Of a stretch of 36,835 bases of DNA, positions 3,352 through 12,443 are shown one piece after another. The stretch covers positions 1 to 36,835 of IMG/VR virus record IMGVR_UViG_3300020162_002824; one strand, written 5' to 3'. Numbering within the stretch: the stretch's first letter is position 1; every line of letters begins with the position of its first letter. Below the pieces are notes generated by a model. That model had not been told where the DNA came from. It worked only from the letters and a program-made list of their open reading frames with translations, and searched no databases. Made by a program: the position numbers and the translations under genes. This DNA is from a virus.

Positions 3352-3603
3352 TTAGTCTTGTCTTGCAGGGAATATCCCTTGCGTACAGATTATGTATTTT
3401 AAATCAGTTCCTTGACAAAAAGATACTGTATTTAAATTGGGCAAGTTAAAAACTACCCTTCCATCTCCTCCGTATTGAGTTCCGAGGATGGCGTATAGTG
3501 CGTTGTATTGGCTAATTTGTAAAGATTGACCATTGCAGTACATATAGTTTTGAGGACAATATGTCCCTGCGAATAATTTAATAACTCCTAGATATTCTTC
3601 CAT
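3352..3603 (-). CDS. Minimal phage tail collar domain protein
   Basis: An 83-residue protein matching the phage tail collar family (microcystin-dependent MdpB-like proteins). It starts LGVIKLFAGTYCPQNYMYCN, followed by GQSLQISQYNALYAILGTQY and GGDGRVVFNLPNL. Conserved features seen are the F-A-G-x-x-x-P start, C-x-G-Q and the YGGDG...F-x-L-P-x-L strand. Family members are usually around 170 residues or are the tip of longer tail fibres. Here only the collar domain remains and the chain ends soon after it, so it is either a stand-alone adhesin or tip module, or a remnant. A terminator follows. It probably acts in the virion at the baseplate or fibre tip. Confidence 0.85.
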   Translation of the reverse strand: MEEYLGVIKLFAGTYCPQNYMYCNGQSLQISQYNALYAILGTQYGGDGRVVFNLPNLNTVSFCQGTDLKYIICTQGIFPARQD

Positions 3604-7950: not shown

Positions 7951-8250
7951 TTATTCTTTTTCTTCTGGACCGTCGCCTTCGTCTTCGTCTTCTCCTCCAA
8001 ATTCAGAGTCGAATTCTATATCAGCGATATTCATCATTTTTCTCTCTTCTGTCAAGAGCCAGTTTCTGATTTGACCATAAATTGCAAATTTATTTCCTAG
8101 TCCAAAATGAAGGGATTCAGTGTCTTCAATATTCTTGCTTACATCGACATGCCTCGTTAAAAAAATTTGAACTGTGTCGTATCCTTCAGAAAGTTCTTTA
8201 ACGCATTTCATTATTTGTTTGTGAGATCTTTCTTGAGATTTATTGTTCAT
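7951..8250 (-). CDS. Hypothetical protein with acidic C-terminal tail
   Basis: A 99-residue protein of unknown function. The first 75 residues look helical and mixed (SHKQIMKCVKELSEGYDTVQ, then FGLGNKFAIYGQIRNWLL). The last 20 or so are almost all Asp, Glu and Gly (FGGEDEDEGDGPEEKE), like the disordered acidic tails of DNA-mimicking or protein-recruiting phage proteins. It sits between the HNH nuclease and dUTPase, overlapping the former by 11 bases. Confidence 0.7.
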   Translation of the reverse strand: MNNKSQERSHKQIMKCVKELSEGYDTVQIFLTRHVDVSKNIEDTESLHFGLGNKFAIYGQIRNWLLTEERKMMNIADIEFDSEFGGEDEDEGDGPEEKE

Positions 8251-8854
8251 TCTTTTGTATTATAAAATGTTTCCATGAATAATGATTAATATTTCTAATC
8301 GAAGATTGGTATGGAACTTTGTGCGGTTTTAAAGAAGGTTTTTTAATTAATTTAAGCCCCGCTTCTTCTGGAGTCTTGTTAGATTTCATTGAATTAATCT
8401 CTTTATCGCAAAGAACTAGATTGTCCCAAGAATCTTTTCCTCCTCTTGATCTTGGAATAATATGATCAATTGAAGCTTTCTTTTTCACTTCTTCTGGAGT
8501 AAATTTTCTGCCAGAATATTGGCAGGTGTAATTATCTCTTTCTGTAATTCTGTCGCTGTTTATTTTAACTTCAAGCATGGGAATTGCGTTGTAGTTTTTA
8601 CAAATAATAACCGTTGGAATTTTAATTGTTATTCTTACAGAAGAAATAGATAAGTCGTTTTCAGACACGGGAACGCGAATCCAGTCTTCCCAAGACAAAA
8701 CTTCAAAAATAGGGTCGCCATTATTTTCTTGAATATGAAGAGCTTGATAATCTCCTGAATACAAACAAGAAATTGCATCAGCTACAGATTTAGTGCCGAT
8801 TGGAATCCAGCTTTTATTAAGGCACAGAGTAATTACTTTGCTTGTGAAAAGCAT
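8240..8854 (-). CDS. HNH endonuclease
   Basis: A 204-residue protein. The C-terminal half carries the HNH core: RDNYTCQYSG at the first strand, the catalytic Asp-His of IDHIIPRSRGGKDSWDNLVL with the motif Asn in WDNL, then DKEINSMKSNKTPEEA. The N-terminal half (SKVITLCLNKSWIPIGTKSV) matches the common bacterial and phage HNH family that begins 'kvLvLN..w.Pi...sv..A..lly'. It is probably a DNA nicking or cleaving enzyme, either a mobile free-standing endonuclease or a packaging or defence nuclease. Only one CxxC-like cysteine is evident, so structural zinc is uncertain. Confidence 0.88.
   Translation of the reverse strand: MLFTSKVITLCLNKSWIPIGTKSVADAISCLYSGDYQALHIQENNGDPIFEVLSWEDWIRVPVSENDLSISSVRITIKIPTVIICKNYNAIPMLEVKINSDRITERDNYTCQYSGRKFTPEEVKKKASIDHIIPRSRGGKDSWDNLVLCDKEINSMKSNKTPEEAGLKLIKKPSLKPHKVPYQSSIRNINHYSWKHFIIQKNEQ
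8259..8264 (-). promoter_or_regulatory. TATAAT box 8 nt before a start codon
   Basis: A consensus -10 hexamer on the minus strand ends 8 bases before the ATG of the acidic-tailed gene, inside the C-terminal end of the HNH gene. No convincing -35 is seen. Initiation from it would give an almost leaderless message. Confidence 0.3.
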
Positions 8855-9112: not shown

Positions 9113-9490
9113 TTATTCGATTTCTATTTTATGTTCTGTTGAAGCTTTTTCTTTCAGCTTCAGTTTTATTTTTAATACTCCTTCAGAAAGAGATGCCTTA
9201 ACTGATTTTTCATCGAACTTGCCAGACACTTTAAAATTTTGGCTGTAATTTCTATCTTTATTATTTGTTTTAATAGACAGAAGATTATTTTGCTCTTCTT
9301 TATTTATTGTGATTGACAGTTCTGATTTTTTAATTCCAGGCATATCAATGGAAACGACATAGTCTGATCCATCTTGCTTGAAGTAGTAGTTTTCTTTTGC
9401 GTCGTAATAATAGTTTAGTGTCATATTTTTATCCTTACAATTAAACTCTATAGCAAAATTCATGCCAACTTTTTCATGGTTATATTTCAT
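9113..9490 (-). CDS. Hsp20 / alpha-crystallin small heat-shock protein
   Basis: A small chaperone of 125 residues. The alpha-crystallin domain runs from about residue 33 to the end: DYVVSIDMPGIKKSELSITI, then FKVSGKFDEKSVKASLSEGV and LKIKLKLKE. It has the hallmark 'DMPGI', 'V.A.l..GvL.i' and the C-terminal I-E-I that resembles the I-x-I oligomerisation motif. Such proteins hold unfolding proteins and occur in T4-like and cyanophages. The start is uncertain: an ATG at residue 23 (position 9424) has AAGGA seven bases upstream, one of the few Shine-Dalgarno-like sites here. Terminators and short gaps suggest it ends its own transcript. Confidence 0.88.
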   Translation of the reverse strand: MKYNHEKVGMNFAIEFNCKDKNMTLNYYYDAKENYYFKQDGSDYVVSIDMPGIKKSELSITINKEEQNNLLSIKTNNKDRNYSQNFKVSGKFDEKSVKASLSEGVLKIKLKLKEKASTEHKIEIE

Positions 9491-10474: not shown

Positions 10475-10897
10475 ATGACAACTTTAGAGGCATCTTTAAA
10501 ACTATTTAACTGGTTTTCTGAAAAAGATTATTTTAATTATCCGAAAGATCTGAATAAACTTTTAATTATCCACGAAAATGATAACGATAAGTTTCCTGTC
10601 GTCGCGGCTTTAAATAATTTTTTAACTGAAGATTTTATATCTTGCGAAGTTAATCTTATCGGGGAGAAAGTTTATTTTTTAAATAGAAAATTAGATCAAA
10701 TCGAGCAAGAAATTAAAATAAGCGGCTCTTTGGCTTGCAGTATCGCGGACAGAATCAACTGGTTTTGCCAAGAAGTTATCAAAGACGACTCGGAAATTTG
10801 CGACCCAAAAGACGTGAAAATGAAGGATTTATGGAACATTTTGAACATTTTAGATTTTTTGAAAAAAGAAGTTGACAAGTCTTCCAAGCAAGAGTAG
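10475..10897 (+). CDS. Hypothetical protein at the strand switch
   Basis: A 140-residue acidic, mostly helical protein without a recognisable family: TTLEASLKLFNWFSEKDYFN, then FPVVAALNNFLTEDFISCEV and WNILNILDFLKKEVDKSSK. There is no signal or membrane helix. It is the first plus-strand gene, and its stop codon touches the first helix of the structured RNA candidate, so the RNA is either its 3' UTR or processed from the same transcript. Position suggests an early gene; function unknown. Confidence 0.7.
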   Translation: MTTLEASLKLFNWFSEKDYFNYPKDLNKLLIIHENDNDKFPVVAALNNFLTEDFISCEVNLIGEKVYFLNRKLDQIEQEIKISGSLACSIADRINWFCQEVIKDDSEICDPKDVKMKDLWNILNILDFLKKEVDKSSKQE

Positions 10898-11188
10898 GTT
10901 CACGACAACCGATTACTAGCTTGCTGGGAATCCAGCGTGAACCGTAAGAGACATCAGACCCGTAAAAAGGCATCGATCAAGTGAAGCTAAGAACTTCAAC
11001 GTTATTTCGGGAAAAAGCGGCGTTCGTAAGACGAGATCGACAGGGCCACCTAGAAGGTGGCGCGAGCAATAAAAAAAGTTCAATCGGTTTTTTGGCGGTA
11101 CATATTTATTCAAGTTGATAGCTAGGCTCTCCGAAAGAGGGCTGAAAACCTACGAAATAGGCCGCGAAGAACTGATTTGGCTTGAATA
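10897..11188 (+). ncRNA. Structured RNA candidate with predicted pseudoknot (class unknown)
   Basis: About 350 bases without a credible protein, GC-richer than the flanks and dense in exact inverted pairs. Helices read by eye: GGTTCACG (10897-10904) with CGTGAACC (10936-10943), 8 bp; inside it CTGG-GAAT-CCAG (10924-10935); AACCGATT (10907-10914) with AATCGGTT (11082-11089), 8 bp, crossing the first helix as a pseudoknot; TCGATC (10973-10978) with GATCGA (11035-11040), enclosing TGAAG/CTTCA; GCCACC/GGTGGC (11045-11061). The 3' domain is closed by TATTCAAG (11107-11114) and CTTGAATA (11181-11188). It holds two hairpins, GCTCTC/GAGGGC and CCTA/TAGG, both with loop CGAAA. It does not match tmRNA, RNase P, 6S, group I or II introns, or riboswitches I know. 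Strand is inferred from the flanking genes and the GAAA-type loops. Confidence 0.7.
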
Positions 11189-11250
11189 ATGTCGTTTACG
11201 ATCTAATATAATTAAATATTAGAGATGGTTCATTTTTTAGCGGTGGTTTC

Positions 11251-11844
11251 ATGGTAACATTTAATAAATCATATCTCGGTTCTCGTACAATCCTTGGATT
11301 GTCCGGCGTAGCCGGAAGTGGGAAGGATACGTTCTTCTCTCTGCTATCGCAGAAACTGCCGTTCCAGAGATTCGCCTTAGCTGATGAATTAAAAATTCTT
11401 CTAAGAGAAGATATTATTAAGAAAACCAATATTGATATTCTTAATTGTACGCGAGAAGAGAAGGACTCGGTTAGAAACGACCTCGTCCTTTTTGCGAAGC
11501 AAAAGAGATTGGAGTCTTATGGAAAGTTTTGGACGAATCTTTTGTCAAAAAAGATAAACGAATCTTCATGTGAACACATTTGCATTACAGATATAAGGCA
11601 CAATTACTTTTCTAAAGACGAAGTTTATTGGTTGAAACAAACTTTAAATGGGCGCTTGATTGATGTTTCATGTTATTCGCCAATTGACGGAACGTTAACT
11701 CAACCTCCAAACGAAGAAGAAGAATTTCATTATCCAAAGGTTAAACAAGATGCTGATTATTATGTGATATGGCCTAAAGTTTCTGATATTAAAAGGCTTG
11801 ACTTGTTTGTAGATCAGTGTATTTTTGACTTACATTTAAAATGA
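11251..11844 (+). CDS. Deoxynucleoside monophosphate kinase-like P-loop kinase
   Basis: A 197-residue P-loop kinase. The N-terminus has ILGLSGVAGSGKDTFFSLLS, a Walker A of the GxxxSGKDT type used by phage T4 gp1-like dNMP kinases and adenylate-kinase relatives. Next come FQRFALADELKILLRE (the typical 'fA.aLK' element) and a later acidic strand, CITDIRHNYFSKDE. It would phosphorylate dNMPs to dNDPs for replication, fitting the dUTPase, dCMP deaminase and RNR elsewhere in the window. It starts about 60 bases after the structured RNA; TAATATAAT at 11205-11213 could serve as a -10. The sigma-factor ATG overlaps its stop. Confidence 0.82.
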   Translation: MVTFNKSYLGSRTILGLSGVAGSGKDTFFSLLSQKLPFQRFALADELKILLREDIIKKTNIDILNCTREEKDSVRNDLVLFAKQKRLESYGKFWTNLLSKKINESSCEHICITDIRHNYFSKDEVYWLKQTLNGRLIDVSCYSPIDGTLTQPPNEEEEFHYPKVKQDADYYVIWPKVSDIKRLDLFVDQCIFDLHLK

Positions 11845-12443
11845 AAGTCTTTACAAGTTTAACGGACATAGATTTAATAAAGTTAATCGCAGAAGAAAAC
11901 TGCGACGATTGTTTTCGAGAATTAGTTTCTAGGCATGAAAATTTATATTATAAAATATGCCACGGATACATGACCGCCTTGAAAAGGTCTGGAGTTTCGA
12001 GTGAAGACATCTTGTCTGATAAGATGTTTGTTTTTTACAATTCTCTTTCTTCATTTGACCCTAGTAAAAATGTTAAATTTTCTACTTGGCTGGCGAATCA
12101 AGCTAGATTTCATTGCCTCAACAAAATTTCCAACACGAAAAATAAATTCTTTGTTGACAATGAGGAAATTTCGCCTATTATAGATTCTGAAATCTCAATG
12201 GAAGCTTTTCGCAAGAAGCCGATTAAAGTAAATTTAGATAATATTTTAACGGCGTTCTCGGAGCTTTCAGACGAAAGAGTTTCATACGTTTTCAAGAGGA
12301 AGTATTCTGATTATAAAGTGAAGTGGAAAAACATTGCTGAAGAACTCGGTGTTACGACGCAAACAGTTTTGAACCTTCATAAAAAAGGGATAAGTCTTCT
12401 TAAAAGAAAAATCAAGAACCGTAAATTAGAAATATATGAGTGA
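11841..12443 (+). CDS. Phage sigma-70 family RNA polymerase sigma factor
   Basis: A 200-residue small sigma factor with two domains. Region 2 (about residues 15-105) contains FRELVSRHENLYYKICHGYM and the -10-recognition stretch FDPSKNVKFSTWLANQARFH. Region 4 (about 135-195) contains FSELSDERVSYVFKRKYSD and the helix-turn-helix WKNIAEELGVTTQTVLNLHK. Regions 1 and 3 are absent, as in ECF and phage late sigma factors. It would redirect host RNA polymerase to phage promoters. The TATAAT-type boxes close to several start codons here are candidate targets (inference). ATG overlaps the kinase stop, so it is expressed with nucleotide-metabolism genes. Confidence 0.88.
   Translation: MKVFTSLTDIDLIKLIAEENCDDCFRELVSRHENLYYKICHGYMTALKRSGVSSEDILSDKMFVFYNSLSSFDPSKNVKFSTWLANQARFHCLNKISNTKNKFFVDNEEISPIIDSEISMEAFRKKPIKVNLDNILTAFSELSDERVSYVFKRKYSDYKVKWKNIAEELGVTTQTVLNLHKKGISLLKRKIKNRKLEIYE

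Follow-up and report, generated by a model that had tools for sequence, protein, structure and literature searches.

A structured RNA family with two covarying pseudoknots at the head of a phage sigma factor operon

Phages have yielded only few large structured RNAs so far, and for the most familiar ones, GOLLD and ROOL, no function is known (PMC12286853). ROOL occurs in phages and prophages; it is large, contains multiple pseudoknots and has no known protein partner. GOLLD is a large, ornate phage RNA (PMC12286853). The RNA described here resembles both. It is located in a stretch of 36,835 nucleotides from the genome of an uncultured virus, which was analysed as a whole and is called the window (IMG/VR record IMGVR_UViG_3300020162_002824). 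The RNA is ~315-470 nt long across its family, compared with 659 nt for the ROOL studied in PMC12286853 and more than 800 nt for many GOLLD RNAs. Unlike ROOL, the family is not found in a tRNA island, barring one tRNA at locus L075, where a tRNA-Gly gene (3426-3501) lies directly 3' of the RNA. A homo-oligomeric nanocage is a further mark of ROOL. GOLLD differs in location and architecture. The GOLLD-like position in a tRNA array is not observed here, since the window tRNAs lie ~4.7 kb away on the other strand and an adjacent tRNA is present only in L075. The Rfam covariance models of ROOL and GOLLD have no match in the window, in the scanned members, or in L151 and L042.

Rfam 15 was used as the reference RNA library. 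A scan of the window returned two tRNAs only, and a permissive scan of the region gave chance-level scores well under the gathering thresholds. No family match was obtained in scans of the members or in sensitive scans of L151 and L042. Models of group I and II introns, RNase P, 6S RNA and known riboswitches are without a match in the window, L151 and L042, and ARAGORN finds no tmRNA (tRNA-like domain, tag ORF) in the window or 22 loci. The sequence-only reading that drew attention to the stretch had recognized no known family in it, and the Rfam models and ARAGORN agree. HEARO, the IscB-type guide RNA, is structured and a few hundred nucleotides long, as is the window RNA. The latter, however, has no Rfam match and no adjacent gene combining RuvC and HNH (IscB-like); its neighbours are a 140-aa ORF, a kinase and a sigma factor, so that an IscB-type partner is absent, as had been stated. 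An HNH protein encoded elsewhere in the window (8240-8854) has only 204 aa and no RuvC match. HK022 put and other processive antitermination leaders are RNA elements at the start of a long phage operon. They differ from the window RNA, which is far larger and contains two pseudoknots, and such an activity is predicted at most here. For viruses, candidate structured RNAs have been compiled in a large catalogue. Literature searches directed at other catalogues, those of phage structured RNAs, turned up no description of the family. Judged by comparative sequence analysis, the RNA is a member of a structured family without Rfam match.

The RNA heads a rightward operon of deoxynucleoside monophosphate (dNMP) kinase, sigma factor and replication genes. 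The locus comprises the following features:
10475-10897, plus strand: conserved upstream ORF, 140 aa, with a winged-helix-like model; its stop codon lies in the RNA promoter
10872-10877, plus strand: -35 hexamer TTGACA of the likely RNA promoter (TTGACA-17-TAGGTT, p=0.02 vs base shuffles)
10895-10900, plus strand: -10 hexamer TAGGTT, overlapping the upstream ORF stop codon and the 5' arm of the discarded helix 1 (see below)
10907-11222, plus strand: structured RNA gene, 5' end set by the likely promoter, 3' end uncertain
11251-11844, plus strand: dNMP kinase (phrog_139, E=2.5e-10)
11841-12443, plus strand: phage RNA polymerase sigma factor (phrog_351, E=9.6e-11; Sigma70_r2, E=3.7e-9)

Across the members a dNMP kinase is located downstream of the RNA, usually followed by the sigma factor. 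Glycosyltransferase-like genes (named by eye) are inserted between RNA and kinase in L042, L057, L066 and L168. In L164 no kinase was flagged, and in L057 and L066 the sigma gene is not directly downstream. The upstream ORF shows that the RNA, contrary to what had been assumed, does not adjoin the first plus-strand gene: this conserved plus-strand ORF (10475-10897) comes before it. It has ~135-200 aa in most members, with a lysine-rich tail in some; it is missing immediately upstream of the RNA in L057 and L066, and in some members other genes displace it. It is also present at loci without the window-type RNA. No match below 0.001 was found in PHROG or Pfam. The AlphaFold model is confident (pLDDT 91.8) and its fold matches are weak, the best being an extended winged-helix domain (E=0.014). 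In L110, L133 and L146, ORFs resembling FKBP-type prolyl isomerases (by eye) occupy the usual place of this ORF. The window additionally encodes a phage Hsp20 family protein (9113-9490, E=5e-12). Its cumulative GC skew has a minimum at the strand switch (~10000), reflecting either a replication origin or coding-strand bias.

If the promoter TTGACA-17-TAGGTT is used, transcription would start at ~10907, the first base of helix P1. A stricter consensus promoter scan does not report this site. For the earlier suggestion that the RNA may be early and abundant, the evidence consists of this sigma-70-like promoter sequence. Most members have hexamers resembling TTGAC(A/T) in the corresponding position, and the distance from the end of the -10 element to the core is usually 55-77 nt; by a simple promoter score, several members have no significant site upstream of the RNA. 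Promoter-like sites are also found between the RNA and the first gene in L075, L078 and L151 (p<0.02) and in L042 (p=0.05). Scans of members for an intrinsic terminator after the RNA gave no convincing one. The window RNA is homologous to those of L001 (92%) and L002 (80%) over ~280 aligned positions, and related RNAs reach ~200 nt 3' of the core, to the second copy of a repeated word.

On its own, the window sequence makes only a weak, suggestive case for an RNA. The stretch of 292 nt first noticed (10897-11188) is indeed richer in GC than its surroundings (0.46 vs 0.33 in the whole window), and the three perfect 8-bp helices described in it are all present. Dinucleotide shuffles of the stretch, however, contain 0.50 such helices on average and at least three in 16 of 1000 cases, and the z-score of the minimum free energy (MFE) is only -1.7 (-0.2 for the minus strand). 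Two of the three helices were retained, 10907-10914/11082-11089 as P1 and 11107-11114/11181-11188 within P9. Helix 1 (10897-10904/10936-10943), together with the pseudoknot that it was thought to form with P1, was rejected. It overlaps the -10 box and is not kept in the closest relatives: 8/8, 6/8 and 2/8 positions pair in the window, L001 and L002. Its 5' arm is therefore probably outside the transcript. The proposal of an unclassified pseudoknotted RNA at the strand switch is borne out by homologues and covariation, but with other pseudoknots than the one named. Covariation supports two that had been missed, 10959-10962/11008-11011 and 11077-11081/11169-11173.

The neighbouring sigma factor served as the starting point for the collection of relatives and yielded the close relatives L001 and L002 and a weak syntenic match, L005. 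The intergenic regions of relatives found in this way have a common core. A first degenerate pattern retrieved L042 and a looser one L057 and L066, and a core profile applied to 80 further sigma loci identified 16 more (E-values 6e-18 to 7e-12). The final pattern matched 30 stretches of viral contigs. Removal of duplicates left 27 distinct RNAs, window included; L163, L164, L168, L169 and L156 were found by the final pattern alone, with no use of the sigma gene. The final pattern matched no contig among 84,980 bacterial and archaeal genomes of GTDB, and no relative of the window sigma protein was found in GTDB genomes. Of the collections searched, those of cultured phages gave only short, chance-like RNA matches and those of plasmids none.

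The conserved core consists of helices P3 (a pseudoknot), P4, P5 and P6. In the window these are:
10959-10962, plus strand: P3 5' strand CCCG, 100% paired; CCCG/CGGG is changed to UCCG/CGGA in three members
10973-10978, plus strand: P5 5' strand TCGATC, pairing with 11035-11040; double changes in 6/6 pairs, 99.3% paired
10983-10997, plus strand: P4 hairpin GAAG-CTAAGAA-CTTC; double changes in 4/4 pairs, 100% paired
10999-11023, plus strand: P6, ACG (10999-11001) with CGT (11021-11023); double changes in 2/3 pairs, 98.6% paired
11008-11011, plus strand: P3 3' strand CGGG, pseudoknot partner of 10959-10962
11035-11040, plus strand: P5 3' strand GATCGA, partner of 10973-10978

The core was aligned for 24 members, leaving out the window, L001 and L002. 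Standard pairs occupy 99.5% of 391 pair cells, compared with 79.8% in shuffles. Double changes occur in 13 of 17 pairs, with 84 double-change cells vs 22.1 in shuffles, a control that is inflated by the relatedness of the sequences. When the structure was slid along the alignment, at most 44% of cells were paired; this control is free of that inflation but favours a structure read from the same sequences. Since each control has a weakness, the hold-out test is important. The model R2, built from the 24 members, matches the window with 75.2 bits (E=9.1e-16) at 10939-11042 and also recovers L001 and L002. In searches of entire contigs, R2 finds one copy each in ten contigs of members, whereas twenty other contigs of the group, often fragments, contain none. 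In the P3 pseudoknot, one pair covaries (CG to UA in three distinct sequences) and the other three are invariant; its 3' strand is enclosed by P6. The 7-nt loop of P4 is mostly CUAAUAA across the family. Unpaired core bases are nearly invariant across members.

Outside the core, the window contains the following elements:
10907-10914, plus strand: P1 5' strand AACCGATT, pairing with 11082-11089
10922-10937, plus strand: P2 hairpin TGCTGG[GAAT]CCAGCG; many members have a hairpin of differing sequence here
11045-11061, plus strand: variable hairpin GCCACCT[AGA]AGGTGGC between P5 and P1, with a GNRA loop in many members
11077-11081, plus strand: PK2 5' strand AGUUC, pairing with 11169-11173 and crossing P1
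11082-11089, plus strand: P1 3' strand AATCGGTT, partner of 10907-10914
11106-11118, plus strand: P9 5' strand, pairing with 11177-11189 and including the 5' arm of the third helix noticed first
11127-11139 and 11149-11161, plus strand: two hairpins inside P9, only in the window's subgroup
11169-11173, plus strand: PK2 3' strand GAACU, partner of 11077-11081
11177-11189, plus strand: P9 3' strand, partner of 11106-11118
11203-11222, plus strand: 3' hairpin CTAATATAATTAAATATTAG, its stem kept in L001 and L002

In the 6-bp core of P1, 98.4% of cells are paired and four of the six pairs show double changes. PK2 is present in the window and paired in 99% of cells across the family, with double changes in 3/5 pairs: AGUUC/GAACU in the window is replaced by AGUCC/GGACU in most members, AAUCC/GGAUU in L076 and AACCC/GGGUU in L066. 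P1, PK2 and P11 together are 99% paired with double changes in 10/15 pairs, although this count is partly conditioned on the motifs by which the strings were cut from each member. None of 500 shuffles reached as high a value for paired cells or double-change cells. P2 is weak or absent in L005, L042, L057, L066, L112 and L168. The P9 domain is closed by a helix of unrelated sequence in nearly every member. Taken together, the sequence comparison shows a predicted fold with a conserved core (P3-P6) containing the first pseudoknot, P1, a P9 domain, and PK2 joining the domains.

In most members a word of 12-16 nt occurs twice without mismatch, first 5' of the P1 3' strand and again ~200 nt later. 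This word is identical within one phage, differs between distant members and is mostly longer than in shuffles. There is no long exact repeat in the window. Elsewhere in the examined loci the word has only one weak match (L078), and its complement was not found within two mismatches. A conserved strand, X, lies between the two copies. Pairing of X with the word of its own phage has a mean energy of -9.1 kcal/mol vs -7.6 kcal/mol for permuted partners (p=0.006, 11 representatives). This suggests that in most members X can pair with the short word, of which each half of the RNA carries a copy. The evidence is only suggestive because X was noticed after the complement search and several possibilities were looked at. 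The arrangement would allow X to pair with copy 1, copy 2 or another molecule; we read it either as a change of partners within one RNA or as a contact that joins RNA molecules. The second copy of the word in L002 (5429-5442) falls within the start of the kinase coding sequence, so that RNA element and mRNA overlap there.

The locus is best read as encoding a large, structured non-coding RNA whose family has not been described before. Its own promoter, at the operon head and ahead of the phage sigma factor gene, would be used by host sigma-70 RNA polymerase. The product may adopt a compact and stable fold and act in trans, either by itself or together with a protein; we give this reading a probability of about 0.5. 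It is favoured by the size of the RNA, the two pseudoknots, the near-invariance of unpaired core bases and the change of downstream genes. The glycosyltransferase genes of L042, L057, L066 and L168, the lack of a flagged kinase in L164 and the tRNA-Gly gene of L075 argue for independence from the next gene.

Somewhat less probable, but a serious competitor, is a leader that acts in cis on the rightward operon. As a nascent transcript, the RNA would control the kinase, sigma and replication genes, either through a ligand-sensing switch or by modifying its own polymerase, as processive antitermination elements do. Such a leader is supported by the fixed position of the RNA at the operon head, by the overlap with the kinase start in L002 and by the members scanned, none of which has a convincing terminator between RNA and first gene. 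Also in its favour are the length of the operon, its nucleotide and replication enzymes, and the repeated word, either copy of which might pair with X. On the other hand, the first downstream gene varies among members and is separated from the RNA by a tRNA gene in L075, candidate second promoters follow the RNA in some members, and no Rfam riboswitch family matches. Furthermore, the RNA is much larger than put or typical riboswitches.

A primer or origin RNA for replication initiation, made at the divergent strand switch, is improbable. The cumulative GC skew minimum at ~10 kb adjoins the RNA and genes diverge from the switch, but coding-strand bias by itself yields the same skew. Unpaired core bases are so strongly conserved that a role beyond priming is suggested, and relatives with the same sigma locus lack a match to the window-type RNA. 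Chance hairpins in an ordinary intergenic region, with which the mildly low MFE of the window (z=-1.7) would agree, can practically be dismissed in view of the covariation in the core and P1/PK2 across 27 members and the recovery of the window by the hold-out model.

Other RNA types are present at the same locus in some relatives. A second highly conserved structured RNA candidate is found in L006 (4640-4950), L015 (2890-3205), L019 (4625-4940) and L023 (4640-4950). It has a promoter-like TTGACA upstream and a possible 5' H-type pseudoknot (GCAGCA/TGCTGC and TCGCCC/GGGCGA), which is co-changing in L023. A third candidate occurs in L080 (3440-3860), L082, L085, L092, L105 and L118, perhaps also in L090 and L101. 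Double changes affect 30 of the 63 RNAalifold consensus pairs (five sequences), a GC-rich 3' hairpin is flanked by a similar word, and the upstream ORF lies directly upstream. Neither type has an Rfam match. Searches with a pattern for the L080 type and with a longer exact one for the L006 type brought up no contigs beyond those already known. Homology with the window type was considered but not detected, R2 being silent at these loci even with filters off; both types may be remote homologues of the window RNA. At this position L007 (4823-5292, contig shared with L106) has an intergenic gap of ~470 nt unlike all three RNA types.

The RNA is distinguished by its compact core, by the two covarying pseudoknots and by a constant location beside a phage sigma factor operon. 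The core of ~100 nt could be made in vitro, which makes it directly accessible to structure determination and to pull-down of ligands or proteins. Since other RNAs apparently replace it at this locus, nature provides a comparison that may help to find its function. That a locus common to one group of uncultured phages has been occupied, depending on the lineage, by three or more large structured RNAs that do not detect one another (the window, L006 and L080 types) is a tentative and rather unlikely proposal. If true, it would imply a viral function that needs a large folded RNA yet tolerates its rapid replacement, for example counter-defence or a decoy for host machinery.
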